Of a stretch of 21,406 nucleotides of DNA, positions 2,062 to 20,472 are shown piece after piece (the first letter of the stretch is position 1; each line of letters begins with the position of its first letter). Location of the stretch: the NCBI RefSeq assembly GCF_023653455.1, contig NZ_JAKEDR010000046.1:1-21406 (forward strand). The letters are read 5' to 3'. Below the pieces are notes generated by a model, which saw only the letters and a list, made by a program, of their open reading frames with translations, had not been told where the DNA came from and did not search any database. Both the position numbers and the translations under genes were made by a program. The stretch is from Paraclostridium ghonii. Its GTDB lineage: Bacteria > Bacillota > Clostridia > Peptostreptococcales > Peptostreptococcaceae.

Positions 2062-2106
2062 AAAAAGCACTGACTTGATAGCCTAAGCTTTCAAAATCAG
2101 TGCTTT
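2062..2106 (-). terminator. Terminator of repeat copy 1 and of the ygc-like operon
   Basis: A long hairpin with the AAGCACTGA/TCAGTGCTT stem, extended by further pairing inside (AGC/GCT). On the minus strand it is followed by a T run. It is the first good terminator after the MFS gene, so it probably ends the seven-gene operon. A T run also follows on the plus strand, so it may work both ways. Confidence 0.8.
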
Positions 2107-2500
2107 CTAAGGAGTAATATTAATTACATCCTTTTCCTCTTTGACTATTATTAAATATAGTTGACAACTTAGCTATAACTCTAACCTTTGGGTATTAGAC
2201 TAAAAACTAGTTGCACTCTAGTAGATTGAGGTTATCTAGTAGATTCATTATATTTAATATGATATTTCTTCAAATATCCAGTCAACCATCACTTCCAAAG
2301 ATACTATCAAAAGGTTAGAAATCATCTAGCTTTTGAATAGTAGTGTTGGTTTGGGAGTTAACCTTCATTAACTCCTTGATTATATATTAACCATTCTTAT
2401 AAATTATATGTATTTTTTTTAAATTTTTTTAATATATGAGTTATATAGTAATCTGACGTAATGTTAAAGCCGTGCTCTTTAGGTTTTAGTGACGCAATAT
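2062..2500 (-). repeat. Non-coding repeat element, copy 1 (putative structured RNA), 5' truncated
   Basis: This stretch is nearly identical to copy 2 over about 400 bases (few substitutions) and related to copy 3. No reading frame spans it. Read on the minus strand it starts next to the MFS stop codon (2505) and ends in a terminator hairpin. Visible stems include GGAGTTAA/TTAACTCC (2354-2375) and CTATCAAAAG/CTTTTGAATAG (2304-2340), and the 10-mer CTAGTAGATT occurs twice 18 nt apart (2218, 2236). Unlike copies 2 and 3, it lacks one arm of the outer 19-bp stem: the surviving arm is at 2436-2454, and its partner is replaced by unrelated sequence abutting the MFS gene. Confidence 0.85.
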
Positions 2501-2504
2501 TAAC

Positions 2505-3791
2505 CTATTCTACAACTACTTCATTATTTTCTAGATTATTTTTCTTAATTTCATTAATCAACAATATAGAAGCTACTATTGCTATAATAGTTGCGCATGC
2601 GCCAAGTATCCAAATATTTTTATATGCTTGAATTACTGGAAGAGTATCTTGCCAGTTTCCTATTATTATATATATAAATGCATCAGGTAAAAATCCTATA
2701 ACCGATGCCACGCCTATAGTTGTTCCTGTTATATTAATTGGGGTATTAACTTCTCCTATAGTTGCAAAATACATTCCCCTTGACACATATACACATATAG
2801 ATGATACTAAAACAACTCCTATCATAGGAATCAATAAAGACTGCTTAGTAGGTGCAATAAATAATATCACTAACGATATAAAATTTATAACAGCTGCTAT
2901 TAATAAAATTTTTGTTGGAGATTTTAAACTTGTTTTAGCTGTTACAAGTCCTGCAAGAGGCGGACTTACAGTACGCATAAATTGATTACGAATCATACCT
3001 ATAAAAGTTGCTGTAACCATAGTCATACCAAATACATCAATTAAATAACTTGACGTATAGCTAAGACAAGCATATACGACATAAACTCCAAATATTATAG
3101 CACTACATAACCATGTAGTTTTTAATTTTAAAACATATATAATATCTGACATTGTTAATGATTTAGATTTTTCTGTATTAATTTTTTCTTTTTTAAATTC
3201 TTCTCCATCTGGAACAAATAACCAACATAAAATAGCTAAAGCTATCATTATTACTCCATATGTCATTAAAACTGCTTTTAAACTAAATATGTTATTTTCT
3301 GCTCCAAATTTCTTAAATATCCATAAAGTTAAAAATGCTGCTATCAAACAGCCTACACCCCTAGCTCCTTCGGATAAGCCTAGTAGTGCTCCTTGTTCTT
3401 CTCTACTACCTAACATAGATACGGACTTTATAGTTGCAGACCACATAAACAGTACTGTTGTAAAGGCCCATAATACTTGTATAGCTATCAAAACATAAAA
3501 AGGTGGATACGTTGCCATTACAAAACCTAGAATTCCGGTAATTGCCATTGAAAACGAAATAAGCTTTTTATGATTAAACTTATCAGCAATTATACCACTT
3601 GGTGCATAAAGAATCATAGCGCAAAATCCATATACACTCATCAATATTCCAGCTTGTGTACTTGTAAGCCCCATTAAAGATTGCATGGCTGGTTGATAGT
3701 TGTATTTAAGGTACGCAAGTTCAAAACTTATTCCTCCGGCAATTCCTATAAGTATTGCTATAAACCATCTATTGCTCTTAAGCTTATTCAT
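2505..3791 (-). CDS. yqcE: MFS transporter of the YihN/YqcE type
   Basis: A 428-residue protein with about 12 membrane segments. The inter-domain part carries IKSVSMLGSREEQGALLGLSEGARGVG, which resembles the LKSVSRLGNSEQQGRLFG stretch of E. coli YihN, and the C-terminal half has GMYFATIGEVNTPINITGTTIG, the counterpart of the YihN/YqcE FAPIGE motif. This subfamily of the major facilitator superfamily is linked to uptake of small polar or acidic organic compounds; the exact substrate is not known from sequence. It is the last gene of the operon, 25 nt after the BCCT gene, and is preceded by GGAGG. In E. coli the relative YqcE sits beside ygcE in the ygc cluster. Its stop codon abuts repeat copy 1. 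Confidence 0.85.
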   Translation of the reverse strand: MNKLKSNRWFIAILIGIAGGISFELAYLKYNYQPAMQSLMGLTSTQAGILMSVYGFCAMILYAPSGIIADKFNHKKLISFSMAITGILGFVMATYPPFYVLIAIQVLWAFTTVLFMWSATIKSVSMLGSREEQGALLGLSEGARGVGCLIAAFLTLWIFKKFGAENNIFSLKAVLMTYGVIMIALAILCWLFVPDGEEFKKEKINTEKSKSLTMSDIIYVLKLKTTWLCSAIIFGVYVVYACLSYTSSYLIDVFGMTMVTATFIGMIRNQFMRTVSPPLAGLVTAKTSLKSPTKILLIAAVINFISLVILFIAPTKQSLLIPMIGVVLVSSICVYVSRGMYFATIGEVNTPINITGTTIGVASVIGFLPDAFIYIIIGNWQDTLPVIQAYKNIWILGACATIIAIVASILLINEIKKNNLENNEVVVE

Positions 3792-3816
3792 GAATTTATA
3801 CCTCCAATAAAATATT

Positions 3817-5367
3817 TTACGAACTTTTTATTTTTTCTTCTTCTACTTTGGTTTCATTTTTCTTTTCTCTTTTAAAATTTATCAGTAAAATTATTGTAGA
3901 TAATCCTGTTACTACTTGTATTACTAATCCAGGTAATCCTCCTATGCTTGATAATATTTTTATCCCTTCTATTCCATTGGTGGATAACATTATAAAACCT
4001 AACAACCCTACTAGTACTCCCCAAAAAATTTTAATGCCTATACTTGCTTCATCCTCTACTTTTTTTATCCCTGAGTAGCATAGATTAGACATTGAAGCTG
4101 TTGTTGAATCGCATGCAGTTATTAAAGATATAAATAAAACTGCTACAAATAAAGGAATTATAACTCTGGATAGAGGAACTATTTCTAAAAACTTAAATAC
4201 AGCAGATTCTGCTCCACTTTGAATAAGCATATTTCCTAATGTGTTGTCATTAAGTTGAATATTTATTACGCTTCCACTAAATATAGTAATCCATACTATA
4301 GCACAAAGTGCAGGTGCTATAAAGTTTACAAATATAGCTTCTCTTATTGTGTATCCGTAAGATATTCTTCCCAAAAACAAAGCTGTTATAGGTGCCCACG
4401 CCATCCAGTTACACCAATAAAATACTGTCCACGATTTTCCCCAACTATCTTCTGGATGAGCTGCTGCTAGCGTACTATTTTGCACAAAATTTGATACATA
4501 AGAAGTAAAACCTTTTCCTCCTAGTTTTACTGTGGCCCCTAAATCCGTAAATATCAATACAATTAAAATTAATAATCCAAACATTATTATATTTAAATTA
4601 GATAGTTTTCTAATCCCATTAGTTAGCCCAGTAGTACACGAAACTATAAACATTGAAACTATTATAGCCATAACTATAAATATCATAATTGTATTTATAG
4701 TTATACCTGTTATATAGTTAATTCCTCCACATATAGTTAGTATTCCCGTAGCTAACGAAGATGCCATACCTGGTATTAAAGTATATAAGGCTAGCCCATC
4801 AATAAAAGGAGACAACTTATTTGCTAACTTATCACCTATTAATGGAGATGCAATTGAGCTTAAACTATTAGATTTTTTCTTATTATAATACATATATGCA
4901 AATAATACAGATGGTACAGTATATATAGCATAAGGTGTAAAACACCAGTGAAGAAACATAGTTGACATAGCAAATATAGCTGATTCCTTTGAATTTGGTG
5001 CAATCCCTAAAAATTTAGGAGGTTGCGTCATATGATAAAGAGGTTCTGCTATTGCCCAAAATAGTACACCTGCTGCTACACTCGTACATAAAGCTACTCC
5101 AAACCAAGTATATTTTTTCAATATAGGTTTAGCATTTTCCCCCCCAATTTTAGTTTTTGATATTGGGTGTATATATATAATAATGCATAATAGAAGCATT
5201 ACTATTCCCACTATACTATAGGATTTTCCAAATATATCCAGTATTTTATTATTCAAATAATTTACAGTTTCTAAAAATATATTTGGAATAAATATATTTA
5301 GCAAAACAGATATCATTATTAAAATTGATGGTGGTAAAACTACCCATAAACGTATTTTCCTATTCAT
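3817..5367 (-). CDS. BCCT family transporter
   Basis: A 516-residue protein with about 12 membrane helices of the betaine/carnitine/choline transporter family. Signatures: KIGG near 73-76, WAIAEPLYHMTQPP (104-117), GMASSLATGI (200-209) and FYWCNWMAWAP (316-326), followed by GRISYGYTIREA. In the last motif one of the two usual adjacent tryptophans is an asparagine (CNW), in the segment that lines the quaternary-ammonium site in characterised members, so the substrate may not be a classic betaine. No long osmosensing tail is seen, which argues for a nutrient role rather than osmoprotection. It lies between etfA and the MFS gene, with a GGGGGAG ribosome binding site. It is not part of the E. coli ygc cluster and seems to be an addition. 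Confidence 0.88.
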   Translation of the reverse strand: MNRKIRLWVVLPPSILIMISVLLNIFIPNIFLETVNYLNNKILDIFGKSYSIVGIVMLLLCIIIYIHPISKTKIGGENAKPILKKYTWFGVALCTSVAAGVLFWAIAEPLYHMTQPPKFLGIAPNSKESAIFAMSTMFLHWCFTPYAIYTVPSVLFAYMYYNKKKSNSLSSIASPLIGDKLANKLSPFIDGLALYTLIPGMASSLATGILTICGGINYITGITINTIMIFIVMAIIVSMFIVSCTTGLTNGIRKLSNLNIIMFGLLILIVLIFTDLGATVKLGGKGFTSYVSNFVQNSTLAAAHPEDSWGKSWTVFYWCNWMAWAPITALFLGRISYGYTIREAIFVNFIAPALCAIVWITIFSGSVINIQLNDNTLGNMLIQSGAESAVFKFLEIVPLSRVIIPLFVAVLFISLITACDSTTASMSNLCYSGIKKVEDEASIGIKIFWGVLVGLLGFIMLSTNGIEGIKILSSIGGLPGLVIQVVTGLSTIILLINFKREKKNETKVEEEKIKSS

Positions 5368-5601
5368 ATTGGCTCCCCCTATATAATGAATTTCTTCCTA
5401 TGCTACTTTGCCTTTAAATGTAAATTTGCAATCCACATTTCTAAAACTTTTTCCAAAGATATTATCTTTTTAAAGATTACATCATAATATTCAAACATTT
5501 AGAATTTTCCATATTTTCTATTTTCAGAGATATTATCTTTTAAAATTATATAGAATTTTTATTAGAGTAATATGAATATCTGACATTTAAATTATCTTTT
5601 A
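5368..5601 (-). promoter_or_regulatory. Gap between etfA and the BCCT gene with two palindromic motifs
   Basis: This is the largest gap within the operon (234 bases). It contains AAAGATATTATCTTT (5455-5469), a perfect palindrome around a single central base, and a second near copy, GAGATATTATCTTT (5527-5540), 71 bp away. Two such sites suggest an operator for a secondary promoter in front of the transporters. No clear -35/-10 pair was found and no terminator is present. Confidence 0.4.
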
Positions 5602-6546
5602 TTATTTATGTTCATCTTCCATTTTCTTTGTTAGCTTTTCAACAAATTCTATTGCATCTCCATGAACAACAATATCTGATAAAGAACATATTGCAGACTT
5701 AGGATCTGTATTAACGCTGATTATTGTTTCAACATCTTTAAGCCCTTCTATATGTTGTATCGCTCCATATATACCTAATGCAATATAAACTTTTGGAGAT
5801 ACTATTTTCCCTGATTGTCCAACTTGTATATTTCTTTGAGCATATTTATTGTCCACAGCTCTCCTGCTCGCGCTAACTTTAGCACCACATAAGCTTGCTA
5901 GTTTATATATTTTTTCAAAATCTGAATTAACACCCCCACCAAAAGATATCAAAAAATCACTTTCTCTTATATCTTCTGATTGAGATTTTTTTATAGATGA
6001 TATTAACCTTAGTTTTTGTTTCCCTTGTTTCAAAGAATTATAATTTATTATTTTAGTTTTTTTATCATTCATTCCATCGTATTTAAAAATTCCCGATCTA
6101 ACGCTACTAATAATAACTTTATCTTTTTCACAAATTATCCCAGCTATTATTTTCCCATCAAATGCTGGTCTTATCATTACTAATTCATCATCTTCAATTT
6201 CTAATTCTGTTACATCTGCTACTATGCCTGTTTTTAAAGCCATTGCTACTCTTGGTGCTATCATTCTTCCAATATCATTTGCATTTATAAGAATTGCATC
6301 AAACTTGTATTCGTCGGTTATATTTTTTATATATTTTGATATATTCATTACGTCGTATTTTAAAATTTCATCTTTTATATTTATCAAGTAATCTAACTTA
6401 TTTTTACATTTTTCTTCATTTATATCTAAACCTATACCATAAATTTCATATTCTTCTTTTTTACTACCTATTATATTGGCAGCTCCTATTAAATCTAAAC
6501 AATCATGTATAGAATCATTTTCTAAATAAATCATTATTTTATACAT
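5602..6546 (-). CDS. ygcQ: Electron transfer flavoprotein alpha subunit, YgcQ-like
   Basis: A 314-residue EtfA/FixB-family protein. The C-terminal FAD domain is well preserved: FGGGVNSDFEKIYKLA (202-217), SASRRAVD (225-232), QVGQSGKIVSP (241-251), GIYGAIQH (258-265) and NTDP (279-282). These are the segments that hold FAD in EtfA proteins. The N-terminal domain (1-180) pairs with EtfB and is divergent. The start overlaps the end of etfB by 8 nt, so the two subunits are translationally coupled. In the operon it would accept electrons from the FAD-linked oxidase and/or pass them on. No ETF:quinone oxidoreductase or ferredoxin-like gene accompanies it here, unlike in E. coli where ygcN and ygcO are nearby. 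Confidence 0.88.
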   Translation of the reverse strand: MYKIMIYLENDSIHDCLDLIGAANIIGSKKEEYEIYGIGLDINEEKCKNKLDYLINIKDEILKYDVMNISKYIKNITDEYKFDAILINANDIGRMIAPRVAMALKTGIVADVTELEIEDDELVMIRPAFDGKIIAGIICEKDKVIISSVRSGIFKYDGMNDKKTKIINYNSLKQGKQKLRLISSIKKSQSEDIRESDFLISFGGGVNSDFEKIYKLASLCGAKVSASRRAVDNKYAQRNIQVGQSGKIVSPKVYIALGIYGAIQHIEGLKDVETIISVNTDPKSAICSLSDIVVHGDAIEFVEKLTKKMEDEHK

Positions 6547-7345
6547 TCTTAATTACTCCCTTACTTTTCAATAAATCGTAAATTTTTTGTATTCCTTCTT
6601 CATCGTTTTTTACAATGTCTTTTTCTGATTTGGAGTAAGTTTTTGTAAAGGTCTTTTTTATCTTTGTCGGTGATCCATTTAATCCTACAATTCTTTTATC
6701 TACCTTAAGATTTTCATTATCTACAACTTGAATTTTATTGCTTACATCTAAATTTAAATCATCAAATCTCACATACCTTAATTTAATCTTACTTTCTCTT
6801 GAAATTCCTAAAATTACACTTTTTTCTTCACTATAATCATATTCACATTCTATTATGTCTTCATCTACTGTAGCTTTAAATTTAATATACTTTTCATTTA
6901 CATCAAAATTTAATATATTTGAAAAACTCCATATATCTAGATATTGTGCTATTTGATTAAGTACATGACCTGTATCTCCATCTAATGAATTTGTTCCTCC
7001 TAGTATTAAATCATACTTTTCATTTTTTATATAACTAGAAAGTATTATACTTGTTGCATAAGTATCACTTCCCTGAAACTCCTTATCACTTATAAGTGTA
7101 GCTTTATCTATATGTCGTCTTAATAAATCCACTAATATTGGTGTAACACTCTTTGGTGCCATAGTAATAATTTCTACAGTTGTATCTTTATTTTTTTCTT
7201 TTAACTTCAATGCATACTCTATTGCACATGCATCATCTGGATTTACAACCATTTTTACGTTTTCTCTAATTAATATATTTTTTTCATAATCATATTTAAA
7301 ATTATCTACATTTGGTACTACTTTTACTAAAACTGCGATTTTCAT
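6539..7345 (-). CDS. ygcR: Electron transfer flavoprotein beta subunit, YgcR-like
   Basis: A 268-residue EtfB/FixA-family protein: MKIAVLVKVVPNVDNF start, VVNPDDACAIEYAL (the family NPxDxxAxExAL motif), and GGTNSLDGDTGHVLNQIAQYL, the nucleotide-binding DGDT loop. The later segment, which in typical or bifurcating EtfB proteins reads EPRYPSL, is replaced by ISRESKIKLRYVRFDDLNL, so this is a divergent branch like YgcR. I chose the ATG at 7345, with a GGGGGA site 4-5 nt upstream; a TTG four codons earlier would lie inside that site. It forms a heterodimer with the next gene product. An intercistronic hairpin (7367-7387) separates it from the kinase gene. Confidence 0.87.
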   Translation of the reverse strand: MKIAVLVKVVPNVDNFKYDYEKNILIRENVKMVVNPDDACAIEYALKLKEKNKDTTVEIITMAPKSVTPILVDLLRRHIDKATLISDKEFQGSDTYATSIILSSYIKNEKYDLILGGTNSLDGDTGHVLNQIAQYLDIWSFSNILNFDVNEKYIKFKATVDEDIIECEYDYSEEKSVILGISRESKIKLRYVRFDDLNLDVSNKIQVVDNENLKVDKRIVGLNGSPTKIKKTFTKTYSKSEKDIVKNDEEGIQKIYDLLKSKGVIKNV

Positions 7346-7366
7346 ATCTTCCCCCAATGTAAAGAT

Positions 7367-7387
7367 AAAAGGAGGGAACCTCCTTTT
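7367..7387 (-). other. Intercistronic hairpin between kinase and etfB genes
   Basis: A perfect 9-bp stem (AAAAGGAGG with CCTCCTTTT) and a 3-nt loop lie in the 60-nt gap between the FGGY kinase stop and the etfB start. On the minus strand it is followed by ATCTTTAC, not a clean T run, so processing, mRNA protection or partial termination is more likely than full termination. The stem contains a Shine-Dalgarno-like GGAGG, but the etfB site is a separate GGGGGA downstream. Confidence 0.55.
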
Positions 7388-7405
7388 ATTTATTTTGATA
7401 TTATA

Positions 7406-8839
7406 TTATTTAAATATAGGGTGTGAACATTTTAAAACTTCATCAGTATGTATTCTTACATTCTTAATTACTTCATTATTTATCCTATCGTATAACTTAT
7501 GAGTTTCTTTATTTGGTATAAATATCTTTTCTGTTCTAACCATATTTTCTATAGTCTCATCAAACGTTTTATAAATACCTGCATATTTTGCAACGCACAT
7601 TGCTGATCCAAGTGCTCCACAGCTGCTTCCTTCTTGTCTTAGTACTTTTAAGTTAAATTGGTCTGCAATTATTTGCATAAGAAGATCACTCTTAGATCCT
7701 CCACCTATTACTACAACTTCATCAAGCTTTACACCCACTTCATCAATCATGTCACATACATTGTTTTTTATCCCAAAAGCAATAGCTTCAAGTATAGATC
7801 TATACATATGGAATTTTGTATGTCTTTGATCAAACCCTATCATAATACCTTTTCTATATGGCTCTGTATAAGTTGCTAACCAATCAAGTATAGTTATAAG
7901 CCCATCACTTCCAGCCGGTATATGAGATGCTTTTAAGTTTAAGTAATCCTCTTCTGATAAACCTAGTTTTTTAGCTTCTATAGTTATCTCTTCACCTAGT
8001 ATATTTTTTAACCAGCTTACCGTCCACATTCCTCTTCTTATTCCATGTGATTCATATACATATTTGTGTGGTACACACGCAAGAGTTGTCCAAAAGCTCT
8101 TAGGATTTCCTACATATATATTTTCTCTGTATAACATAGCTGAAATAAATGTTCCTAAAGATATCATTACTCTATTTTCTGTATTTACACCTGATCCTAA
8201 AACTTCAACTGCTTTATCATTTGAAGAAGCTACTACAGGTAATTTATCAGGTAACCCCCACTCCCTTGCAAGTTCTGGCTTTAATCTCCCAAGGAGTTCT
8301 CCTGGTTTTACTACATCAAATAGCATTTCTCTTTTTAATCCACACGACTTTATAACTTCATCATCTTCTGACCATTGTAATTTTTCTAAGTCTAGAGGCC
8401 ATCCAAATTCACAGTTTGACCCACAATCTGTAAACTCTCCAGTTAATCGATTTGATATGTACCCTGTGGTACTTGTAACAAACTTTACATTGTAATCTTC
8501 ATGTTTATATGGATCCTTCATTCTAGTATCCATCCAACTTATTATCGGATGAGCTAAAGATCCATCTTCTTTAAGAAGCACTCTACAACATCTTATGGTA
8601 CATATTCCCATTCCAATAATGTCATTTTTATCGCCATTAAAATTTTCTAAACACTTTTTTATTGCCATTTTGATACTATCCCATAAATCATCATCCGGGT
8701 GAACCACAATCCCCGGTTCAGGAGTTAAGTTATCCTTTAATTTCCAACTTCCAAAAGCAACCTCATCTCCCTTTAAGTCGAATATTGAAACCTTTGTACT
8801 CTGAGATCCATTATCAACACCAATTATATATTTTCCCAT
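7406..8839 (-). CDS. ygcE: FGGY-family carbohydrate kinase, YgcE-like
   Basis: A 477-residue kinase of the FGGY family (xylulokinase/glycerokinase fold). It has the N-terminal phosphate loop VDNGSQSTKVSIFD (8-21), the catalytic-aspartate region ASSNDKAVEVLGSG (Asp208, matching the GxDQ motif of relatives), ISLGTF (227-232) and the C-terminal adenosine motif VVIGGGSKSDLLMQIIADQF. Members phosphorylate a hydroxyl of sugars, polyols or related acids with ATP. Position in the operon and overall resemblance suggest the counterpart of E. coli YgcE, whose substrate is not established. The gene starts at an ATG with GGAG 7 nt upstream and follows the FAD-oxidase gene after a 91-nt gap holding a hairpin. 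Confidence 0.88.
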   Translation of the reverse strand: MGKYIIGVDNGSQSTKVSIFDLKGDEVAFGSWKLKDNLTPEPGIVVHPDDDLWDSIKMAIKKCLENFNGDKNDIIGMGICTIRCCRVLLKEDGSLAHPIISWMDTRMKDPYKHEDYNVKFVTSTTGYISNRLTGEFTDCGSNCEFGWPLDLEKLQWSEDDEVIKSCGLKREMLFDVVKPGELLGRLKPELAREWGLPDKLPVVASSNDKAVEVLGSGVNTENRVMISLGTFISAMLYRENIYVGNPKSFWTTLACVPHKYVYESHGIRRGMWTVSWLKNILGEEITIEAKKLGLSEEDYLNLKASHIPAGSDGLITILDWLATYTEPYRKGIMIGFDQRHTKFHMYRSILEAIAFGIKNNVCDMIDEVGVKLDEVVVIGGGSKSDLLMQIIADQFNLKVLRQEGSSCGALGSAMCVAKYAGIYKTFDETIENMVRTEKIFIPNKETHKLYDRINNEVIKNVRIHTDEVLKCSHPIFK

Positions 8840-8873
8840 CTTGATTCTCCATCCTAATTGAATTTCTAATTTA

Positions 8874-8916
8874 TATAAAGTATAAGTACAAATAAATTAT
8901 GCACTTATACTTTATA
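8874..8916 (-). other. Intercistronic hairpin between FAD oxidase and kinase genes
   Basis: A perfect 14-bp AT-rich stem (TATAAAGTATAAGT and its complement, 8874-8887 with 8903-8916) with a 15-nt loop. It is not followed by a long T run on the minus strand (AAATTAGAAATT follows), so it is more likely an mRNA processing or stability element than a terminator. Confidence 0.5.
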
Positions 8917-8930
8917 CATTTAGACATATA

Positions 8931-10424
8931 CTATTTTTGGTATTTTGCTCCTTCTTCTTTATAGAATATATTCCCATAGTTCATTATGTCATTTGGATCA
9001 AATGCTTCTTTTAATTTTTCTAACATATATAGTGCTGTCCCATGCTCTTCATGAGTCCATTCATTACGATATTTACCTATACCGTGATGATGACACATAG
9101 ACCCTCCTAATTTTAAAGTTTCTTCAACAATTATTTTTTGTATTGGATGATGATATAATCTCATTTCATCTTCTGGAGCACAATTTATATTATAATTGTA
9201 AACAAAGTACATATTTGTTCCATTTATGTAACTATGAGAAGAATGTCCTCCTAGCATAGTCAAGTCCTCTGCTCTATCAAATTCATTTTTTACACGATTC
9301 ATAACATTGTAATATATTTGTGTTATATCTTTCCAGTTAGAAGATATTTCTGTTGTAAATCCTGCATGAGAATCATTTTCAAGCATTCCTTGTATCTCAT
9401 CTTCTATATCCTTTTCACTCCAATTTAAGTGATTGAACCAATTTTCAATTAAAATATCATCTACTCTTTCTATAATACCTTCATTGAACTTTTCTACAGC
9501 TTCTTTTATTCCTTCAGAAGTAGCTTTAACTATTCCCTTTGGCCCTTCTGCCATTAATACAAGTACACATTTATTATCGTGGAAATGATAGAAATGCTGA
9601 GCTGCATCTTCTTCTGAATAAACTCTAGCTACAGATGGTCTATAACCATTAGCCATTATTTCTCTCAATATTTTTATTCCTGTATCTACATCTTTTATTA
9701 AGTATCCATGGAATTCATTATTCTCTGGATAATGTTTAAACAATTTTACTGTAACCTCTGTTATATAGCATAAAGTTCCTTCATTTCCAATTGCTATATG
9801 TCTTATATCTGGTCCTCCTGCACGTCTAGATACATTTTTTATTCTAGATACATGTCCATCTGGGAATACACATTCAAGCCCAACGACCATATCTTCTATA
9901 CCTCCATACAGTGTAGAAAATTGCCCTATACTTCTAGTAGATACCAATCCTCCATATTGAGCTATTGGCTTTGATTGTGGAGAGTGTCCTGTTGTATATC
10001 CTAACTTTCTAACTTCATCTTCTAAATCTTGTAATTTCACTCCACATTGTACTGTTGCTTGCATATTGTATGTATCAATGTTTATTATATTGCCCATTTT
10101 TGATCCATCTACAACTATAGCTTGCTCTTTCCAGTTTTCAAGTCCACCTTCTGTAGCAGTTTTCCCACCACGAGGTATAACGTTTATTGAATGCTCATTA
10201 GAAAATTCTAATATTTTTTTTACGTCTTCTGTACAATTGGGATATACTATTGCTGTTGGTAGAGGTACAGGAAGTACACCCTTTGCCTTGGCATATTTGT
10301 TATATCTATCAGATGATGCATCATATAATGCATCTATATCCGTATTTATTTGATCTTCATTTAAAAAACCTTTTAATAAAGTTACTATCTCTTCATTTGT
10401 TATCATTTTCGTTAATTCACTCAT
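8931..10424 (-). CDS. ygcU: FAD-linked oxidase of the VAO/PCMH family, YgcU-like
   Basis: A 497-residue flavoprotein. The FAD-binding domain (about 50-240) has PRGGKTATEGG (84-94), a second FAD-contact stretch QSKPIAQYGGLVSTRSIGQFS (150-170) and AIGNEGTLCYITEVTVKL. The C-terminal substrate domain ends with the histidine cluster MCHHHGIGKYR (His445-447), as in alkyl-DHAP synthase and related D-2-hydroxy-acid dehydrogenases, and with FDPNDIMNYGNIF, the usual last motif. Members oxidise 2-hydroxy acids or similar alcohols and hand electrons to an acceptor such as ETF. A comparable pairing is the LctD/EtfAB lactate dehydrogenase of acetogens. It is the second gene of the operon, 54 nt after the SDR gene, with a GGGGGAAA ribosome binding site. 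The substrate is unknown. Confidence 0.88.
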   Translation of the reverse strand: MSELTKMITNEEIVTLLKGFLNEDQINTDIDALYDASSDRYNKYAKAKGVLPVPLPTAIVYPNCTEDVKKILEFSNEHSINVIPRGGKTATEGGLENWKEQAIVVDGSKMGNIINIDTYNMQATVQCGVKLQDLEDEVRKLGYTTGHSPQSKPIAQYGGLVSTRSIGQFSTLYGGIEDMVVGLECVFPDGHVSRIKNVSRRAGGPDIRHIAIGNEGTLCYITEVTVKLFKHYPENNEFHGYLIKDVDTGIKILREIMANGYRPSVARVYSEEDAAQHFYHFHDNKCVLVLMAEGPKGIVKATSEGIKEAVEKFNEGIIERVDDILIENWFNHLNWSEKDIEDEIQGMLENDSHAGFTTEISSNWKDITQIYYNVMNRVKNEFDRAEDLTMLGGHSSHSYINGTNMYFVYNYNINCAPEDEMRLYHHPIQKIIVEETLKLGGSMCHHHGIGKYRNEWTHEEHGTALYMLEKLKEAFDPNDIMNYGNIFYKEEGAKYQK

Positions 10425-10478
10425 TATAAACTTTCCCCCTGTATTATTAATTTTAATTTTGCTTTTTAATTTTCTTTA

Positions 10479-11538: not shown

Positions 11539-12243
11539 ATGATTAATATAAATTGGGATAATTTAAACCAACTAGAACGTAGACTCTATAAAACTATATT
11601 TAAAGCTGTTCAAGATGATAAAAATCTTAATATAATTAAAGCAAGTGAGATTTGTGAAGTATCTTCTTCTAAAATTTCAAAGACTGTAAAAAAATTAGGA
11701 TTTAAAAACTATAAAGATTTTATTAAATTTTGTAGAGGGGAACTTAGTGAGCTTGATGATAAATCATATTCTGATGAGCTTAATAGACTAAATAACTATA
11801 TTAAAAGTTTTGATGAAAATATAGTAACTGAGTTCATTGAAAAGATATCTAAATTTGATAAAATTGTAATTTATGGACTAGGACCTTCTTTTATTTGTTG
11901 TCAATATCTTGAATATAAATTGAGAATGTGTACCTCTAAAACTGTATTAGCAATAAACGATGAAATTCAAATTAAAAATGTTGTAGATTCAGATACATTA
12001 TTTATTATATTTTCTGTTACAGGAAAATTCTCATCATTTGAAAATGTTTGTAATATTGTAAATCAAAAAAAAGGTGAAATTTTAATAATATTTGAAGAGT
12101 ATAATAATAATAATTATCCTTATGCGTCAAATATAATGTATCTAAGTAAATTCAAACAAAATAATAAATTAGCCCCATATGAAAAAACAAGAACAATTTT
12201 ATTTATTTTTATTGAAGAGATCATACAAAAACTATTAAATTGA
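11539..12243 (+). CDS. RpiR-family transcriptional regulator
   Basis: A 234-residue protein with an N-terminal helix-turn-helix (residues 33-66: IKASEICEVSSSKISKTVKKLGFKNYKDF, the RpiR pattern) and a C-terminal SIS domain (about 95-220, with IVIYGLGPSFICCQYLEYKL). The SIS domain usually binds a phosphosugar effector, which fits regulation by the product of the FGGY kinase. It is the only plus-strand gene here, divergent from the ygc-like operon and sharing its intergenic region with the 28-bp palindrome. An AGAGGGAG site lies 8 nt before the ATG. It is somewhat shorter than typical RpiR proteins (about 280 residues) and the SIS domain is divergent. E. coli uses a different regulator (YgcP) for its ygc genes. 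Confidence 0.85.
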   Translation: MININWDNLNQLERRLYKTIFKAVQDDKNLNIIKASEICEVSSSKISKTVKKLGFKNYKDFIKFCRGELSELDDKSYSDELNRLNNYIKSFDENIVTEFIEKISKFDKIVIYGLGPSFICCQYLEYKLRMCTSKTVLAINDEIQIKNVVDSDTLFIIFSVTGKFSSFENVCNIVNQKKGEILIIFEEYNNNNYPYASNIMYLSKFKQNNKLAPYEKTRTILFIFIEEIIQKLLN

Positions 12244-12410
12244 TAGCTCTACGTTTAATTGATATTTAAAGTAATTATAATTTCAAATGATTTATTTTAC
12301 TACCTTCATAAGTCTAATTTGTAGTAAATATAAATAAAAACTTATGCTTTACTTAAACTAAGTATTTATATTTTATTTGCAAAAAAACATATATACTTAG
12401 TTTGTAATTA
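12244..12410. other. Intergenic stretch after the RpiR gene with one inverted repeat
   Basis: Contains AAACTAAGTAT (12355-12365) and its complement (12393-12403) around a 27-nt loop. It could be a weak end signal for the regulator transcript, but the stem is AT-rich and no proper T run follows on the plus strand. Otherwise I see nothing. Repeat copy 2 starts immediately after and can act as a terminator from this side too. Confidence 0.3.
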
Positions 12411-12457
12411 AAAAAGCACTGACTTGATAGCCTAAGCTTTCAAAATCAGTGCTTTTT
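12410..12457 (-). terminator. Terminator of repeat copy 2 and of the alkylsulfatase/TauE genes
   Basis: The same AAGCACTGA/TCAGTGCTT hairpin as in copy 1, followed by six T on the minus strand and five T on the plus strand. It should stop leftward transcripts from the TauE gene and may stop rightward transcripts from the regulator. Confidence 0.8.
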
Positions 12458-12872
12458 AAGGAGTAATATTAATTACATCCTTTTCCTCTTTGACTATTAT
12501 TAAATATAGTTTCCAACTTAGCTATAACTCTAACCTTTGGGTATTAGACTAAAAACTAGTTGCACTCTAGTAGATTGAGGTTATCTAGTAGATTCATTAT
12601 ATTTAATATGATATCTTTTCAAATATCCAGTCAACCATCACTTCCAAAGATACTATCAAAAGGTTAGAAATCATCTAGCTTTTGAATAGTAGTGTTGGTT
12701 TGGGAGTTAACCTTCATTAACTCCTTGATTATATATTAACCATTCTTATAAATAATATGCATTTTATTAAAATTTTTTTAATTTTTAATAGATGAGTTAT
12801 ATAGTAATCTGACGTAACTTTAAAGCCACGCTCTTTAGCCTTTAGTAAAGGAAGATTATTATATAACTCATC
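12411..12872 (-). repeat. Non-coding repeat element, copy 2 (putative structured RNA), full length
   Basis: A 462-base element with no spanning reading frame, very similar to copy 1 and clearly related to copy 3. On the minus strand it begins with a 19-bp stem (12854-12872 with 12791-12809, GATGAGTTATATA...) around 44 nt, followed by an A/T-rich linker, the GGAGTTAA/TTAACTCC hairpin (12703-12724), the CAAAAG/CTTTTG stem, two CTAGTAGATT units (12567, 12585) and the final terminator hairpin. A long-range match CTAACCTTT with AAAGGTTAG is possible in all copies. The stems differ from copy 3 by paired changes. It lies 44 bases after the TauE-like stop codon. Confidence 0.88.
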
Positions 12873-12916
12873 CATATACTTTAAACAATTTATATTTAAG
12901 ATGAGTTAATAGTAAT

Positions 12917-13804: not shown

Positions 13805-13847
13805 CTAATACATTTCCTTTCTTTAAAAGTATTCATAAGTTAAATAA

Positions 13848-13884
13848 TTGTGCTAGTTAATATATCCATAATTAACTAGCACAA
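13848..13884 (-). terminator. Hairpin between alkylsulfatase and TauE genes
   Basis: A perfect 14-bp stem (TTGTGCTAGTTAAT and its complement) with a 9-nt loop, starting 10 nt after the alkylsulfatase stop. On the minus strand TTATTTAACTT follows, an imperfect T tract, so termination is probably partial and TauE may be read through at a lower level. Confidence 0.6.
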
Positions 13885-13893
13885 CAAATTAAT

Positions 13894-15798: not shown

Positions 15799-16152
15799 AA
15801 ATTTACTCCTTCTAAATAATATTAATATTGTTTATACTGACAATAAAACTCTACCTACTCAGTATGTCCAAAATTTAAACAATAAATAAGTAAACAGCAA
15901 TTGAAATTTATAAACTCAAAACTATATAATACTAAGCAAATTAAGTGCTTTTTTCATTACTACTAAACTATATTTAATTCCATTGGCCAACATTTAGTAA
16001 TTTCATCCCGGGTTGGATTAGTGCTGTTATTATTTATTATCTATTTATTTAAAAGTCTATTTTTTGCAAAATGTAAACCTTTTTAAAACTTAAATTTATT
16101 AATATATAAGGAATAACTTCTAAACCCTAGTGTTATCAATCCTTTCACAAAC
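15799..16152 (-). promoter_or_regulatory. Leader/promoter region of the alkylsulfatase gene
   Basis: About 350 bases without a gene. On the minus strand it holds several inverted repeats: ATACTGA/TCAGTAT (within 15834-15866), TACTAAA/TTTAGTA, and CCAAC/GTTGG with an unusually GC-rich patch (CCCGGG near 16008, TTGGCCAA at 15983-15990). This suggests an operator or a structured leader, but it matches no riboswitch I know and no promoter can be fixed. Confidence 0.35.
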
Positions 16153-16197
16153 AAAAAGGTATCTCATGCTATATAATTTAGCTTGAGATACCTTTTT
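16153..16197 (-). terminator. Terminator of the YfkN-like gene
   Basis: A 14-bp stem AAAAAGGTATCTCA/TGAGATACCTTTTT with added GCTA/TAGC pairing in the loop, and T runs on both sides. It starts nine bases after the nucleotidase stop codon. Confidence 0.88.
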
Positions 16198-16205
16198 AGC
16201 TTTAA

Positions 16206-19200
16206 TTAATCAATTTTTCCATCAAAATTTTTATCTAAATTCATTATATTCGGATTCTTATTCACATCTAGTTTATTTAATCCTAGAGTTCCATCATTAT
16301 TATTATCTAATTTCGAAAATGCTTCAGTGTACTTTTCAAGAGCTTCTAAATCTCCCATAACAACTTCATAACTTACATCTTTGAATGTATCAAAACCGTC
16401 TCCACCTTGTGCTAAGAATATATTAACTACAGCACTTATTTTCATATCATCAGTAATTAATGTTTTATTTTCATCCTTTAAGCTTATACTATCCACTTTT
16501 AAAACCCATTTTCCATCAACCAGTTCTGGATGCCACTCATATGTAAATCCTTCTATTTGTAACATTCTTGGTCTATTGTATTTTCCTTGTTGCATTCCTA
16601 TTACCCAGTCATGTATGTTTTGAGTTTCTAAAATTTCTTTTAATTGTGCTCCATTTAATGTAAGCTTTGTTAAATCATTCCCAAATGGCTGTATTGTGTA
16701 AACATCTTCATAAGTTATATCACCTTTTTGTAAATCAGATCTTACTCCACCTATATTCATCATTGATATTTGAACATCTTCACCTTTTTCTTTAACTGAC
16801 CATAATTGAGCCTCTGCTATCATTCTTCCAAGTTCTGATTCTCCATTTGCACCTTCTATATCTCTTGATATAAATTCTTGTGCAAAACCTATTTTTCTTT
16901 CAAGTAAAGGCTTAACATCTTCTTTTGCTTTTTGTACCATGCGTGTAACAGTTTCGTCTGCTGGCATACTTTTTGGATCTACAGGTAATATTTTTGATTT
17001 TGAAGATACTACATCTCCTGTTTTCTTATCTATTGCTAAATCTATATCAGCTATATTAGTAGATTTAGAATATGCTTGTGCTACTACTATATCATCTTTG
17101 CCTTCTCTTTTTACTACTGAATTTGCATATTGATGATTATCCGCTGCTATTATTACATCAACTTCACCATTTACCTTTTGAGATATATCATATATATCAC
17201 TGCTTCCTTCTAAGTCTACAAGATTTCCCGTATCTTTATCTGTTAATGCCGGTACATGAGATAATACTACTATAGTTTTTACACCTTGCTTTTGAAGTTC
17301 TTCAGTGTATTTATCTATAGCCTGTACTTCATCTATAAAATCTACATCTTTTATACCTGCTGGAACAACCTTTTTAGCCGTATCTGTTGTAACTATACCT
17401 ATTACGCCTACCTTTACACCATCAAATTCTTTTATAGTGTATGGTTTTAATATTGGTTCACCTTTTTTTACTTCTTTATTGCCAAACTTCATATCTTTAT
17501 TAGCTACAACGTTAGCATTTATCCAATTTAAATCTTGTGAACCTTTCCATTCAAGACCTGATGAATGAGTCCCACCTTGTATTATTCTAGCTAATTCATT
17601 TATACCTTCATCATATTCATGATTTCCTGTTGTTACTATATCTACGTTCATCTCTTTTAGTATTTCTAAAGTTGGTTGATCTTGCTTTAATGCTGTAACA
17701 GCTGGGCTTCCACCTACAGAGTCTCCTGCTGAAAGTGTAAGTGTATTTTTATTTTCCCTTTGTAATTTTTTTAGATGAGATGATAAATTGTCTATTCCAC
17801 CTCCAAGCTTAGGGTCTACATCAAATTGTCCATGTAAATCATTAAAAGATAATAGCTGAACATCTACTGTGTTTTGTGAACTTTCTTCATTACTTAAATT
17901 GTAAGAATAAACAGCCATACCATTTTCTAAATCTTTTACTTTATTTACGTTTGGTGTTTCATTTAAATACTTTTCTCCATCTTTATGAGAGTTAAATAAT
18001 ACTTTAGCATTACTATTAACTGTCTTAATTTTCCAGTTATCATCTTTAGAAGGAGTTATTGTTCCACTTTCTTTTATGTAATCCATTATTGCTTGTCTAT
18101 TTTCATCTGGTGATGAATAAACTAATTTTGCATCTTTAACCCCAGGGAAATTACCACTTGCTCTATAGTTATTAGTAACTACTAAGAATTCTTGATTTAA
18201 ATCTAATTCTTTTCCATTATATTTTAAATTTGATATTCTTTCTGAATCTTTATTTATAGTATTTCCATTAATATCATATTTAGCTTTTTTAGTTACATCT
18301 ATTTCGTAAGTAAGTCCTTCTATAGAATCAAAATTGTATGATCTATATCCAGTGTTAAATAATTGTTGCTCTTGAGCTGAGTTAGGGTCTATTGTATTAA
18401 ACATTCCACTTGTCATTTCTAACCATTCTTTTATTTGAGCCCCATTTATTTTTAATATACTTACAGTGTTATCATATATATATAAGTTCGATAAATCTTT
18501 TATTTTAAGTTCTCCTGACTTTATGTCAACATAGTTAGTCGGATCATTAAAATCTCTTCCGCCTGCTTTAAATGGAGCTGCTGCAGATAGTATAGGTAAA
18601 TTTTTATATGGTTGTAGTTCATCTTGACCTTGTTCTATTTTATTTTTCGCATACCATCTTTGTGCTTGTGCTACTTGTTCAACAGAAGGATTATCTGATA
18701 CTAATGAGAAGAAACTGTTTAGATCTTTAGTGGTTTCACCTACAGGTTTATTTATAAATTTAAGAGTAGCTTCATGTGCAGCTTTTAAATCCTTGTTATT
18801 AGTTATAATTGAACTATTTTCTGGCTTTAATTCTTGTACACTTTTTCTACTTATTTTACTTTCTTTATCATTAACAACCCAAGTTTTTCCTTTTTGTTCT
18901 AATTTTAAATCAACAATTCCTAATTCTTTTCCCCAGTTAGACGGTTGTATAACTTGAACACCATTTATTTCAGTTTGTGTTGTTGAATGCGAGTGCCCTG
19001 CTACTACAACATCTAAACCTTTTACTTTAGTTAATTGATATGCTGCATTTTCAGAGTTCATTATATGTTCATCACTTTCACCTGTACCCGTATGTGCTAA
19101 AGCAATTACTATATCAACTTTTTCTTTTTCTTTTAATTCTTTAGTTATTTTTTCAACTGAAGTTTTCATATCTTCAACTTGAACTTTACCTTGTAAATTT

Positions 19201-19859
19201 TGCTTGTCCCAATTTAATATTTGAGGTGGAACAACTCCAGTTATCCCTATTTTAACTTTTTGTTTTTTGCCATTTGAATCTATTACTGTTTCATTTATTA
19301 CTTTGTAGGGATTAAATACATACTTCCCATTATTATCTAAAACATTAGCATTTACTACATTTGTCTTCATTACCTTTTTGTTTGTTATTTGCTTTAAAAA
19401 ATCAAGACCATAGTTGAATTCATGATTTCCTAAGGTAGTTGCATCATATCGTAGTATATCTAATGCTTCATAAGAAGGATATTTTTCTCCTGGCTTAACT
19501 TTTGTTTCTTCATTCATTGCATGCACTGTGGACAATGGATTTCCTTGTATTACGTCACCATTATCTAATAATATCGAATTGTCTATATTTTTATTCTTTA
19601 AATCTTTATCTGCTTCTTTTCTTGACTGTTCTATTATAGTTGCCAGCCTTGATAAACCCATATTAGGATCTTGTTTATCTGTAAAGTAATCATGATCCAT
19701 TATGTTAGCATGTAAGTCAGTTGTAGCCATAATACGAAAATCAACAGTTGCATTATTCTTTTTCGCCGCTTCTGCAACTATTGGGGTCATAATTGGAATT
19801 ACCAACCCTGCTGATATAGCTACTATTGTCAAGCTTTTTATTCCTCTTTTGTGCCTCAT
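16206..19859 (-). CDS. Secreted bifunctional nucleotide phosphoesterase, YfkN-like, with EF-hand tail
   Basis: A 1217-residue exported protein. A signal peptide (1-31, core LTIVAISAGLVIPIMTPIV, cleavage near AEA-A) is followed by two complete metallophosphoesterase/5'-nucleotidase units. Unit 1 (about 38-620): TTDLHAN (46-52), DNGDVIQGNP (99-108), GNHEFNYG (144-151), AHTG, AGHSH (287-291), then a nucleotidase C-terminal domain with TNNYRASGNFPG; this resembles 2',3'-cyclic phosphodiesterase CpdB. Unit 2 (about 664-1170): FNDLHGQFD (672-680), SAGDSVGGSP (710-719), GNHEYDEG (745-752), then NIGGVRSDLQKGDITYEDVYTIQPFGN; this resembles 5'-nucleotidase. The pair matches B. subtilis YfkN, which salvages extracellular nucleotides and phosphate. 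The extreme C terminus has two EF-hand/dockerin-like loops (DNNNDGTLG from 1185, DKNFDGKID 1209-1217). No LPXTG anchor or membrane helix is present. Ribosome binding site GGGAGG. Confidence 0.92.
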   Translation of the reverse strand: MRHKRGIKSLTIVAISAGLVIPIMTPIVAEAAKKNNATVDFRIMATTDLHANIMDHDYFTDKQDPNMGLSRLATIIEQSRKEADKDLKNKNIDNSILLDNGDVIQGNPLSTVHAMNEETKVKPGEKYPSYEALDILRYDATTLGNHEFNYGLDFLKQITNKKVMKTNVVNANVLDNNGKYVFNPYKVINETVIDSNGKKQKVKIGITGVVPPQILNWDKQNLQGKVQVEDMKTSVEKITKELKEKEKVDIVIALAHTGTGESDEHIMNSENAAYQLTKVKGLDVVVAGHSHSTTQTEINGVQVIQPSNWGKELGIVDLKLEQKGKTWVVNDKESKISRKSVQELKPENSSIITNNKDLKAAHEATLKFINKPVGETTKDLNSFFSLVSDNPSVEQVAQAQRWYAKNKIEQGQDELQPYKNLPILSAAAPFKAGGRDFNDPTNYVDIKSGELKIKDLSNLYIYDNTVSILKINGAQIKEWLEMTSGMFNTIDPNSAQEQQLFNTGYRSYNFDSIEGLTYEIDVTKKAKYDINGNTINKDSERISNLKYNGKELDLNQEFLVVTNNYRASGNFPGVKDAKLVYSSPDENRQAIMDYIKESGTITPSKDDNWKIKTVNSNAKVLFNSHKDGEKYLNETPNVNKVKDLENGMAVYSYNLSNEESSQNTVDVQLLSFNDLHGQFDVDPKLGGGIDNLSSHLKKLQRENKNTLTLSAGDSVGGSPAVTALKQDQPTLEILKEMNVDIVTTGNHEYDEGINELARIIQGGTHSSGLEWKGSQDLNWINANVVANKDMKFGNKEVKKGEPILKPYTIKEFDGVKVGVIGIVTTDTAKKVVPAGIKDVDFIDEVQAIDKYTEELQKQGVKTIVVLSHVPALTDKDTGNLVDLEGSSDIYDISQKVNGEVDVIIAADNHQYANSVVKREGKDDIVVAQAYSKSTNIADIDLAIDKKTGDVVSSKSKILPVDPKSMPADETVTRMVQKAKEDVKPLLERKIGFAQEFISRDIEGANGESELGRMIAEAQLWSVKEKGEDVQISMMNIGGVRSDLQKGDITYEDVYTIQPFGNDLTKLTLNGAQLKEILETQNIHDWVIGMQQGKYNRPRMLQIEGFTYEWHPELVDGKWVLKVDSISLKDENKTLITDDMKISAVVNIFLAQGGDGFDTFKDVSYEVVMGDLEALEKYTEAFSKLDNNNDGTLGLNKLDVNKNPNIMNLDKNFDGKID

Positions 19860-19900
19860 ATTTTCCTCCCATTTTTTAACTGTATTTAATTTCCAATATT

Positions 19901-19929
19901 ATCCTACCAAATGCTCATCATAATATCAA
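19901..19929 (-). promoter_or_regulatory. Candidate promoter of the YfkN-like gene
   Basis: On the minus strand TTGATA (19924-19929) and TAGGAT (19901-19906) are 17 bases apart, giving a leader of about 35 nt before the ATG. This is the best pair in the 150 bases upstream; the -10 is not ideal. Confidence 0.45.
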
Positions 19930-20008
19930 TATAAATTTATCTTTGTTCCGCAAATATTTCATATAAAACACTTCTATTGCTTATTGTTTTTTAAAATATA
20001 TACAAAGC

Positions 20009-20056
20009 AAAAAGCACTGATTTGATAGCATAAGCTTTCAAAATCAGTGCTTTTTT
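20009..20056 (-). terminator. Terminator of repeat copy 3 and of the S41 peptidase gene
   Basis: The AAAAAGCACTGA/TCAGTGCTTTTT hairpin again, with internal AGC/GCT pairing. Six T follow on the plus strand and five T (TTTTTGC) on the minus strand. In the minus direction it would terminate the peptidase transcript. Confidence 0.78.
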
Positions 20057-20472
20057 AGGAGTAATATTAATTACATCCTTTTTCCTCTTTGGCTTTATTA
20101 AACATAGTTTGCAATTTAGCTATAATTCTAACCTTTGGGTATTAGACTAAAACTAGTTGCACTCTAATAGATTGAGGTTGTCTAATAGATTCATTATATT
20201 TAATATGATATTTTTTCAAATATCTACCCAATCATCACTTCCAAAGATACTACCAAAAGGTTAGACACTGCCTAGCTTTTGCGTAGTTAGTGTTGGTTGG
20301 ACAATTAACCTTGATTAACTGTCTGATTATATATTAACCATTATTATAAATAATATGTAAATCATTTAAAAATTTTTTAAATTTTAAAATGATTAGTTAT
20401 ATAATAATCTGACGTAACATTAAAGCCAATCTTTTTAGGCTTTAGTGTATGAAGATTACTATATAACTAATC
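20009..20472 (-). repeat. Non-coding repeat element, copy 3 (putative structured RNA), full length, diverged
   Basis: A 464-base element with the same order of blocks as copy 2 but with many substitutions. The outer 19-bp stem (20391-20409 with 20454-20472) reads GATTAGTT/AACTAATC where copy 2 has GATGAGTT/AACTCATC, and the inner hairpin (20300-20323) reads GACAATTAA/TTAACTGTC where copies 1 and 2 have GGAGTTAA/TTAACTCC. The third stem has CTACC.../...GTAG in place of CTATC.../...ATAG. Both halves of the 18-nt-spaced duplication changed together (CTAATAGATT at 20164 and 20182). It starts 36 nt after the S41 peptidase stop codon and ends before the YfkN-like promoter region. Confidence 0.87.

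Follow-up and report, generated by a model that had tools for sequence, protein, structure and literature searches.

A multi-copy structured RNA family of Peptostreptococcaceae with a conserved promoter of putative forespore type

The window analyzed here, a stretch of 21,406 nucleotides from Paraclostridium ghonii (contig NZ_JAKEDR010000046.1), carries three copies of a putative structured RNA gene of ∼317 nt, all on the minus strand, each preceded by a conserved promoter and closed by an intrinsic terminator. Copy 2 (12411..12727), reckoned from an approximate 5′ end just 3′ of the −10 region to the U-run of the terminator, was delimited by alignment A3, structure, covariation and folding; copies 1 (2062..2378) and 3 (20009..20325) were placed by alignment and covariance-model match, and sequence comparison bore out the positions that an initial annotation had given for all three. 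Within the RNA itself, identity is 98.4% between copies 1 and 2, and copy 3, the most diverged, shares 86–87% with each of them. The core domain, which comprises helices P3–P8 and in copy 2 formed the basis of covariance models R1 and R2, lies on the same strand at 2143..2283 in copy 1 (144.6 bits, E = 1.8e-29), 12492..12632 in copy 2 (143.7 bits, E = 2.8e-29) and 20090..20229 in copy 3 (136.6 bits, E = 1e-27). As had been annotated, a minus-strand terminator hairpin is present at the 3′ end of all three copies; in copy 2 this is helix P10 with its U-run (12411..12457, minus strand), for which 96.9% of cells are paired in the whole-RNA alignment. Upstream, also on the minus strand, each copy has a −10-like block, GGTTAATATATAAT (2379..2392, 12728..12741 and 20326..20339 in copies 1, 2 and 3), and a −35-like box, which reads ACATA in copies 1 (2407..2411) and 3 (20354..20358) and GCATA in copy 2, where it lies 14 nt 5′ of the GG in the −10 block and extends the promoter to 12760 (12756..12760).

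The ∼460-nt unit originally described is a composite of this RNA gene, which stands as window positions 12411–12727, and a separate upstream hairpin repeat. What had been read as the outer stem of the RNA (GATGAGTT/AACTCATC) is instead a repeat of ∼82 nt 5′ of the promoter, located by sequence comparison at 12788..12872 for copy 2, 20391..20472 for copy 3 and 2429..2502 for copy 1, where its right arm is degenerate or missing. The repeat is also found apart from the RNA (at G000:C124 and in two places in G005), and nhmmer matches in the copies of relatives begin at model positions of at least 77, which excludes it, the one exception being a separate weak match to the hairpin in L032, ∼440 nt away from a copy. 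On the strength of the RNA-free occurrences and of the relatives' matches starting past it, we ruled out the hairpin as part of the RNA.

The RNA gene family occurs in several Paraclostridium and Romboutsia relatives. Homologues were collected and modeled, and the covariance models, which cover the 140-position core only, find the RNA in 22 of 71 Peptostreptococcaceae genomes, representing 9 of 23 genera; members are mostly 290–335 nt long and number one to five per genome, the fifth being degenerate. No match was obtained in other families under strict filters in an order sample of 393 genomes and a class sample of 391, searches that scored eight candidates per genome and may therefore have passed over distant homologues. 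Among 17 named pattern matches, two, in Bacillus sp. J33 (L066) and an Oscillospiraceae MAG (L074), were rejected as family members. Rfam 15 yielded no match at or above gathering on the copies tested, and none at all on the diverged copies in L042, L054 and L144; the best overlapping matches scored 25–32 bits (Spd-sr07, gathering threshold 55), the rest were at chance level, and with no score near gathering on the copies tested we ruled out the known Rfam families. The search included ROOL, GOLLD, OLE, raiA and the group I and II introns, and the earlier failure to match the element to a known large RNA is upheld as far as tested.

The predicted architecture common to the copies consists of ten helices, one supported pseudoknot and one tentative pseudoknot. 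Two of the pairings first noticed in the window, an inner hairpin and a third stem, are real and correspond to P1 and P2b. A long-range pairing that had been called conserved, CTAACCTTT/AAAGGTTAG, is possible in A-type copies, but inspection did not find it maintained in the diverged groups; its 3′ strand instead covaries with the bulge of P2 (CUUUGG/CCAAAG, CUUUUG/CAAAAG, CUAUUGG/CCAAUAG and CCUUGGG/CCCAAGG), and CUUUGG/CCAAAG is the better-supported long-range pairing. In a position-free test, pseudoknot PK1 scored 696, and the highest of 200 shuffles, which ignore phylogeny, scored 632.5; by raw alignment columns it is weak (26, 25 and 59 of 300 tree-null simulations reached its measures) because the groups differ by one bulge nucleotide. 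PK2 (CCUC/GAGG), despite the compensatory types UCUC/GAGA and CCUA/UAGG, cannot be taken as proven: its score of 499 compares with a shuffled mean of 488 and maximum of 518 (200 shuffles), and 68, 127 and 256 of 300 tree-null simulations reached its three measures. Copy 2 (12411–12742) has a fold z of −7.4; the diverged relative L042 has one of −7.75 and an MFE structure of its own that reproduces most of these helices, and L054 one of −4.32, with P2 folded differently. Conservation is stronger in the fold than in any candidate seed sequence seen in the RNA.

Compensatory change was assessed in three alignments: A2, comprising all 43 core-model matches (41 rows without the two halves of the N-gapped L032 copy); A1, drawn from 38 rows of which five were omitted (these two halves, the degenerate L036 copy, L056 and L058); and A3, comprising 37 of the 41 rows (L056, L036:2398, L057 and L058 omitted, the end of L047 set by hand). 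In the A2 core, 92.8% of cells across 44 pairs are paired, as compared to 35.6–39.7% with partners slid, both sides change in 29 of the 44 pairs, and on each of the five measures none of 500 shuffles reached the observed value. None of 300 simulations under a tree-based null reached the observed 92.8% paired, 162 double-change cells or 29 pairs, the maxima being 83.2%, 103 and 22. For the whole RNA (37 rows), 91.1% of cells are paired and 52 of 109 pairs show compensatory change, again unmatched in 300 tree simulations. Individual measures were less uniform: in one earlier alignment test, 12 and 6 of 500 shuffles attained the observed values of two pair/type counts, and a stricter per-pair covariation test was weak, with 6 of 44 pairs significant within the structure set and none when all pairs were tested. 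Pairing is nonetheless kept down to ∼65–70% sequence identity, and the compensatory changes claimed for the window are real across the wider family, exceeding both shuffle and phylogenetic controls; taken as a whole, covariation in the larger alignment is significant, being reached by 0 of 500 shuffles on nearly all measures and by 0 of 300 tree simulations. The minus strand as the RNA strand agrees with 93 G-U versus 16 A-C cells in the core. The lack of an Rfam 15 match, the homologues and the survival of pairing through divergence together support the proposal of a candidate new structured RNA family.

The promoter and a link to sporulation do not figure in the initial annotation. Among 41 copies examined, two (L056 and L036:2398) lack a recognizable −10; in all 39 others, NNAT[A/T] stands exactly 14 nt 5′ of GGTTAATATA or a one-base variant of it, and the first base of the −35-like box is G in 31 of the 39. 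(A stricter pattern listed 32 promoters and missed that of L041.) The same layout, GNATA-N14-GG[T/G]TAAATTAATA, precedes five SASP genes of the genus (L083–L087) among 29 SASP loci. These five are probably a single orthologous group, orthologues of the sigma-G-dependent sspA/sspB; sigma-G is reported to control both genes directly in C. difficile (PMC3789822). The spoVAC promoters, tried as a second anchor for a forespore promoter, were abandoned with no match in six upstream regions. Likewise, the bare genome-wide pattern was rejected as evidence: GNATA-N14-GGTTAA has 17 sites in the window's own genome, of which one precedes such a SASP gene and another belongs to RNA copy 2, and a reversed control pattern has 21, so that the frequency is that of chance. 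Since the tighter form of the motif is also found at two further sites of unassigned context (L113 and L117), the promoter argument rests on conservation and the SASP match. The promoter (GNATA-N14-GGTTAATATA), most likely of sigma-G/sigma-F type, suggests that the RNA is made within the developing spore, and judging by it we consider forespore expression quite probable.

Alternatively, the housekeeping sigma-A or some other factor might transcribe the same RNA during vegetative growth or stationary phase, the likeness to SASP promoters being coincidental. The TATAAT within GGTTAATATATAAT of the window copies would fit such a reading, as would the chance-level frequency of the bare motif and the motif-free spoVAC regions. 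However, TATAAT is not kept in the diverged groups (ATATTATTA, ATATAGATG and ATATATGTA), where GGTTAATATAT and the box 14 nt 5′ of it are retained and where, by inspection, no TTGACA-like box is conserved; together with the shared layout before the five SASP genes, this makes sigma-A transcription unlikely, if not negligibly so. The distribution of the RNA agrees with a forespore role only in part. SASP genes are present in all 22 RNA-bearing genomes, and the covariance-model search gave no credible match in the 16 SASP-negative genomes of the 71; one weak R2 match (G030; 72 nt, 30.9 bits, E = 0.013), which has no promoter block and reads as a palindrome past a ribosomal-protein-like gene, was attributed to chance. 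The association is confounded by phylogeny, and as the RNA was not detected in 33 of the 55 SASP-positive genomes, among them every one of the eight from genus g17 (3.9–4.8 Mb), it is not a general sporulation RNA.

That the element is a non-coding mobile element, such as a MITE or a degenerate IS or IStron end whose structure serves transposition, is brought to mind by the several copies per genome in close relatives, by tandem or clustered copies (L031, L040 and the window) and by the window genome, where RNA and upstream hairpin are shared as a unit with, by inspection, differing outer flanks. We nevertheless consider it very improbable, as copies are syntenic in several genomes, indicating vertical inheritance, and compensatory evolution extends throughout an RNA that has a promoter and a terminator and favors G-U over A-C on the proposed strand. 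No group I intron model of Rfam matched either strand at the thresholds applied, no transposon end was recognized by inspection, plasmid and phage BLAST returned no match to the RNA, and a scan of viral contigs with one exact terminator pattern was negative. No transposase family was matched by any of the 20 neighboring proteins scanned, 18 of which have a Pfam match, or by any of the 10 window proteins, 7 of which have one. With synteny added to the negative plasmid and phage BLAST searches and viral-contig pattern scan, a mobile or phage origin was rejected.

A reading as a cis-acting, riboswitch-like leader or attenuator of the downstream gene would fit the terminator at the end of the element and the downstream ORF, which lies on the same strand in 25 of 38 scored copies. 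In the other 13, however, it is convergent (copy 1 of the window, counted here, rests on a doubtful ORF), and the same-strand genes are unrelated, encoding a P-type ATPase (L035), a LytTR response regulator (L034), a hydroxyethylthiazole kinase (L050), a B3/4-domain protein (L045) and, at L031, a 1217-aa protein that by reading resembles a 5′-nucleotidase. An unsystematic look noticed no antiterminator pairing, and comparison of neighbors across genomes found no gene common to the whole family. The convergent and unrelated downstream genes led us to discard this highly unlikely explanation; at the sequence level, the element is a unit with its own promoter-like block, its own terminator and no conserved ORF. 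A coding RNA was ruled out in turn, for, in keeping with the claim that the copies contain no reading frame, the longest ORF of each row measures 9–58 aa with none conserved, and no Shine-Dalgarno-like sequence (by the regular expression used) precedes the three longest ORFs of any of the 37 rows.

Computationally, then, we have established a family together with its strand, architecture, promoter conservation and terminator, and found no single shared partner gene. From these sequence features, we think it likely that the family is a multi-copy, independently transcribed, intrinsically terminated structured RNA, made in the forespore and acting in trans. Most likely, transcription would take place in the forespore from the sigma-G/sigma-F-type promoter, and the folded RNA would then act in trans at that stage of sporulation as a regulator or a protein-binding scaffold; whether by protein binding or base pairing is the least certain part of the proposal. 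A bolder and improbable version holds that an ornate, pseudoknotted, multi-copy RNA, driven by SASP-type promoters, might build up in the forespore and serve there as structural or storage RNA or as the scaffold of an RNP, perhaps in oligomeric form as for ROOL or GOLLD, and that it has no counterpart beyond a part of the Peptostreptococcaceae. Our results add a sizeable, well-supported structured RNA family unmatched in Rfam 15 and offer a concrete hypothesis, sigma-G-driven forespore expression. To our knowledge, the forespore RNAs described so far are few and come from Bacillus; a clostridial one, often present in several copies, would, if confirmed, provide a tractable system for studying the roles of RNA in the developing and dormant spore.

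Among known RNAs, GOLLD, ROOL and OLE are larger than ∼317 nt, and the predicted architecture of the present RNA differs from theirs. Like these ornate RNAs (PMC12286853), it is intergenic and elaborately folded, with a function not readable from neighboring genes, but it has no Rfam match and carries a putative sporulation-type promoter. With the raiA motif/ModT (PMC11706538) it shares the character of a standalone structured RNA of Clostridia, differing in its lack of an Rfam match, its confinement to part of one family and its multiple copies in several genomes. Bvs196, a 294-nt sRNA of Bacillus velezensis, is reported to have a conserved stable structure, to be independently transcribed in the forespore, where sigma-F and above all sigma-G control it, and to be widespread in Bacillus (PMC9147052). 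By these descriptions, length, independent transcription and stable conserved structure are similar, forespore expression being suggested here by the promoter; the present RNA differs in its one to five copies per genome, its pseudoknots (one supported, one tentative) and its occurrence, so far, only in Peptostreptococcaceae. CsfG, also non-coding, is reported to be confined to the forespore under sigma-F and sigma-G (PMC9147052, PMC12456014), a control that the promoter would imply here, and its original report is cited under a title that describes it as highly conserved among endospore formers; no homology to it was seen, insofar as no Rfam family matches the present RNA. On our best reading, which likens them by description, the present RNA would be an analogue of Bvs196 and CsfG.

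The three copies proposed in the initial annotation were recovered by repeat finding, which paired 2051-2350 with 12400-12699 at 97% and placed the third at 20009. Over the 317-nt RNA (minus strand, 2062-2378, 12411-12727 and 20009-20325 for copies 1 to 3), identity is 98.4% between copies 1 and 2, and 86-87% between copy 3 and either of them. The plus strand of the element begins AAAAAGCACTGA...TCAGTGCTTTTT, so that its minus strand finishes with a hairpin and then a U-run, in agreement with the suggested terminal hairpin. Its lack of resemblance to known RNAs was also upheld, as cmscan against Rfam 15 returned at the copies only matches far below gathering.

BLASTN with copy 2 as query produced matches in 29 of 99 genomes; full-core matches were found in 5 of the 6 genomes of the window's genus (own genome counted in both figures) and in genera g3, g9, and g12, and those beyond these genera were weaker or shorter. 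Outside the window, nearly all matches ended by approximately query position 400, and the final ∼80 nt of the query matched at separate places, so the proposed ∼460-nt unit holds for its core but not for this last stretch. Regions fetched from matching genomes and processed with nhmmer plus MAFFT yielded a 38-row set of homologues. Copy-bearing relatives include Paraclostridium benzoelyticum and [Eubacterium] tenue (both members of the window's genus), Romboutsia sedimentorum, R. weinsteinii, Clostridium sp. CCUG 7971, Faecalimicrobium dakarense, Peptostreptococcaceae bacterium VA2, and one MAG. The core was confirmed by covariance model at 15 of 17 pattern loci.

Alignment A1 of the core has 33 rows; of its 1439 cells, 92.4% were paired as compared to 35-40% in slid controls, with changes on both sides in 18 of 44 pairs; among 500 shuffles, the pair count was reached in 12, the type count in 6, and the other three measures in none. 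For A2 (all 43 model matches, fitted to the model), each of 500 shuffles fell short on every measure, as did each of 500 for the full-length alignment A3 (37 rows; 91.1% of cells paired, changes on both sides in 52 of 109 pairs). Because kinship of the sequences inflates shuffle tests, columns were simulated 300 times on a FastTree tree with the substitution number per column kept. The A2 values (92.8% paired, 162 double-change cells, 29 of 44 pairs with changes on both sides) exceeded the simulated maxima (83.2, 103, and 22; 0 of 300), and A3 was likewise above all 300 simulations. In a simplified per-pair G-test with a tree-type null, 6 of the 44 pairs of the structure set reached significance, and the all-pairs version gave none. 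The compensatory changes first noticed among the window copies are thus borne out as a whole, against shuffles (with the A1 exceptions given) and, for A2 and A3, against tree simulations. G-U cells outnumber A-C cells in the minus-strand core (93 vs 16), which favors the minus strand as the RNA strand. We conclude that this family is a standalone, often multi-copy structured RNA.

The architecture was derived from the alignment and folds. The 5' part consists of the P1 hairpin and the long P2 hairpin, which is broken into segments P2a-P2d and carries a bulge of 8-9 nt in its 3' strand. P3 closes a domain containing the P4 hairpin and then P5, an 11-bp helix with 100% of cells paired (A3) that closes P6 (apical loop CCUC), P7, and P8; next come a linker that contains GAGG, P9 (a hairpin), and the terminator P10. 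The P2 bulge and P8 loop form pseudoknot PK1 (CUUUGG/CCAAAG, with covarying versions), and a second, tentative pseudoknot, PK2, would pair the P6 loop with the linker (CCUC/GAGG). The diverged F. dakarense copy (L042) recovers most of the family's helices in its own MFE (z -7.75), and the copy at locus L054 forms P1 and P4-P10 with its P2 region folded in another way (z -4.32). TPP and glycine riboswitches flank the former (L042:1876-1974, minus strand, and 3403-3491, plus strand).

The copies are intergenic. The next ORF is on the same strand in 25 of 38 scored copies and convergent in 13, although the "convergent" ORF of copy 1 (1333-1764) is doubtful, as it overlaps a better minus-strand ORF; one further copy, whose contig ends before any ORF, falls outside the 38. 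No neighbor gene was common to the whole family among the loci compared; a P-type ATPase, a nitroreductase, a Cu/Zn superoxide dismutase, and a 1217-aa 5'-nucleotidase-like protein (named from its sequence) recur between some related loci. Synteny between genomes was seen for several copies (L039/L044/L046, L042/L047, L050/L051/L053, L048/L054/L055, and window copy 3 with L031/L033, beside the 1217-aa gene), which indicates that inheritance is largely vertical. Head-to-tail RNA gene pairs occur at L031:8283-9033 and L040:4570-5335, with short gaps and each gene having its own promoter block and terminator. Near an intact copy, L036:2398-2523 (minus strand) is degenerate, lacks the -10 block, and is apparently a decaying paralogue.

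An ∼82-nt hairpin repeat (GATGAGTTATATA...TATATAACTCATC, inner AAAGCC/GGCTTT stem) lies upstream of all three window promoters (2429-2502, 12788-12872, and 20391-20472). It is also found without the RNA (G000:C124:24807-24872; G005:C1:1035232-1035308 and 1507612-1507683) and may be a small element with a mobile or regulatory nature. Elsewhere in the window, a WXG100/ESAT-6-like gene (874-1167, minus strand, PF06013), adjoined by small ORFs without Pfam match, may belong to a type VII secretion locus. One minus-strand run (5602-10424) encodes an electron-transfer flavoprotein (alpha subunit, Pfam) with a sugar kinase and FAD-linked oxidase predicted from reading ORFs, and an RpiR-type regulator (Pfam) lies nearby at 11539-12243.

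The block GGTTAATATA or a one-base variant is present in 39 of 41 copies, and a five-base box that ends 14 nt upstream of it reads NNAT[A/T] in 39 of 39 (first base G in 31), with a spacer of varying sequence. This motif is not a TTGACA/TATAAT pair, nor is TATAAT conserved. Of 29 SASP (small acid-soluble spore protein) loci collected from the window's genus, five (L083-L087, one in each of five genomes) carry GNATA-N14-GGTTAAATTAATA, with GGG in one; we infer these to be orthologues of sspA/sspB, which in C. difficile are reported to be under direct sigma-G control (PMC3789822). The likeness suggests that the RNA promoter is a forespore promoter. Three observations count against this assignment: the motif was absent at the other 24 SASP loci and from 6 of 6 spoVAC regions; the bare motif occurs genome-wide at chance frequency (17 vs 21 reversed); and the continuation [AT][AT]TA is found at two of the 17 sites other than the SASP gene and copy 2.

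The covariance model R1 of the 140-position core (P3-P8) matched 21 of 71 family genomes and 9 of 23 genera; R2, with looser filters, added one (G056) among 34 SASP-positive genomes without an R1 match. SASP genes were present in 55 of the 71, including 22 of 22 RNA-bearing ones, and 33 of the 55 had no detectable copy. The 16 SASP-negative genomes yielded no R1 match and one weak R2 match with looser filters (G030, E 0.013), a promoterless and palindromic match that we attribute to chance. With strict filters, all 21 matches in the order sample (393 genomes) were in Peptostreptococcaceae, and the class sample (391 genomes) gave none beyond the own genome.

The RNA is probably transcribed in the forespore and probably acts in trans through its fold. 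In the open-access literature, surveyed mostly by titles and abstracts, we found no paper describing an RNA of this kind from these genera. A term search of a 50-genome ncRNA survey (PMC11109978) located one Peptostreptococcaceae motif, in the rpsJ 5'-UTR, and it differs from the RNA described here. Its nearest known counterparts in kind are two forespore sRNAs: Bvs196, which is 294 nt long and reported to be controlled by sigma-F and sigma-G in Bacillus velezensis (PMC9147052), and CsfG (PMC9147052, PMC12456014).
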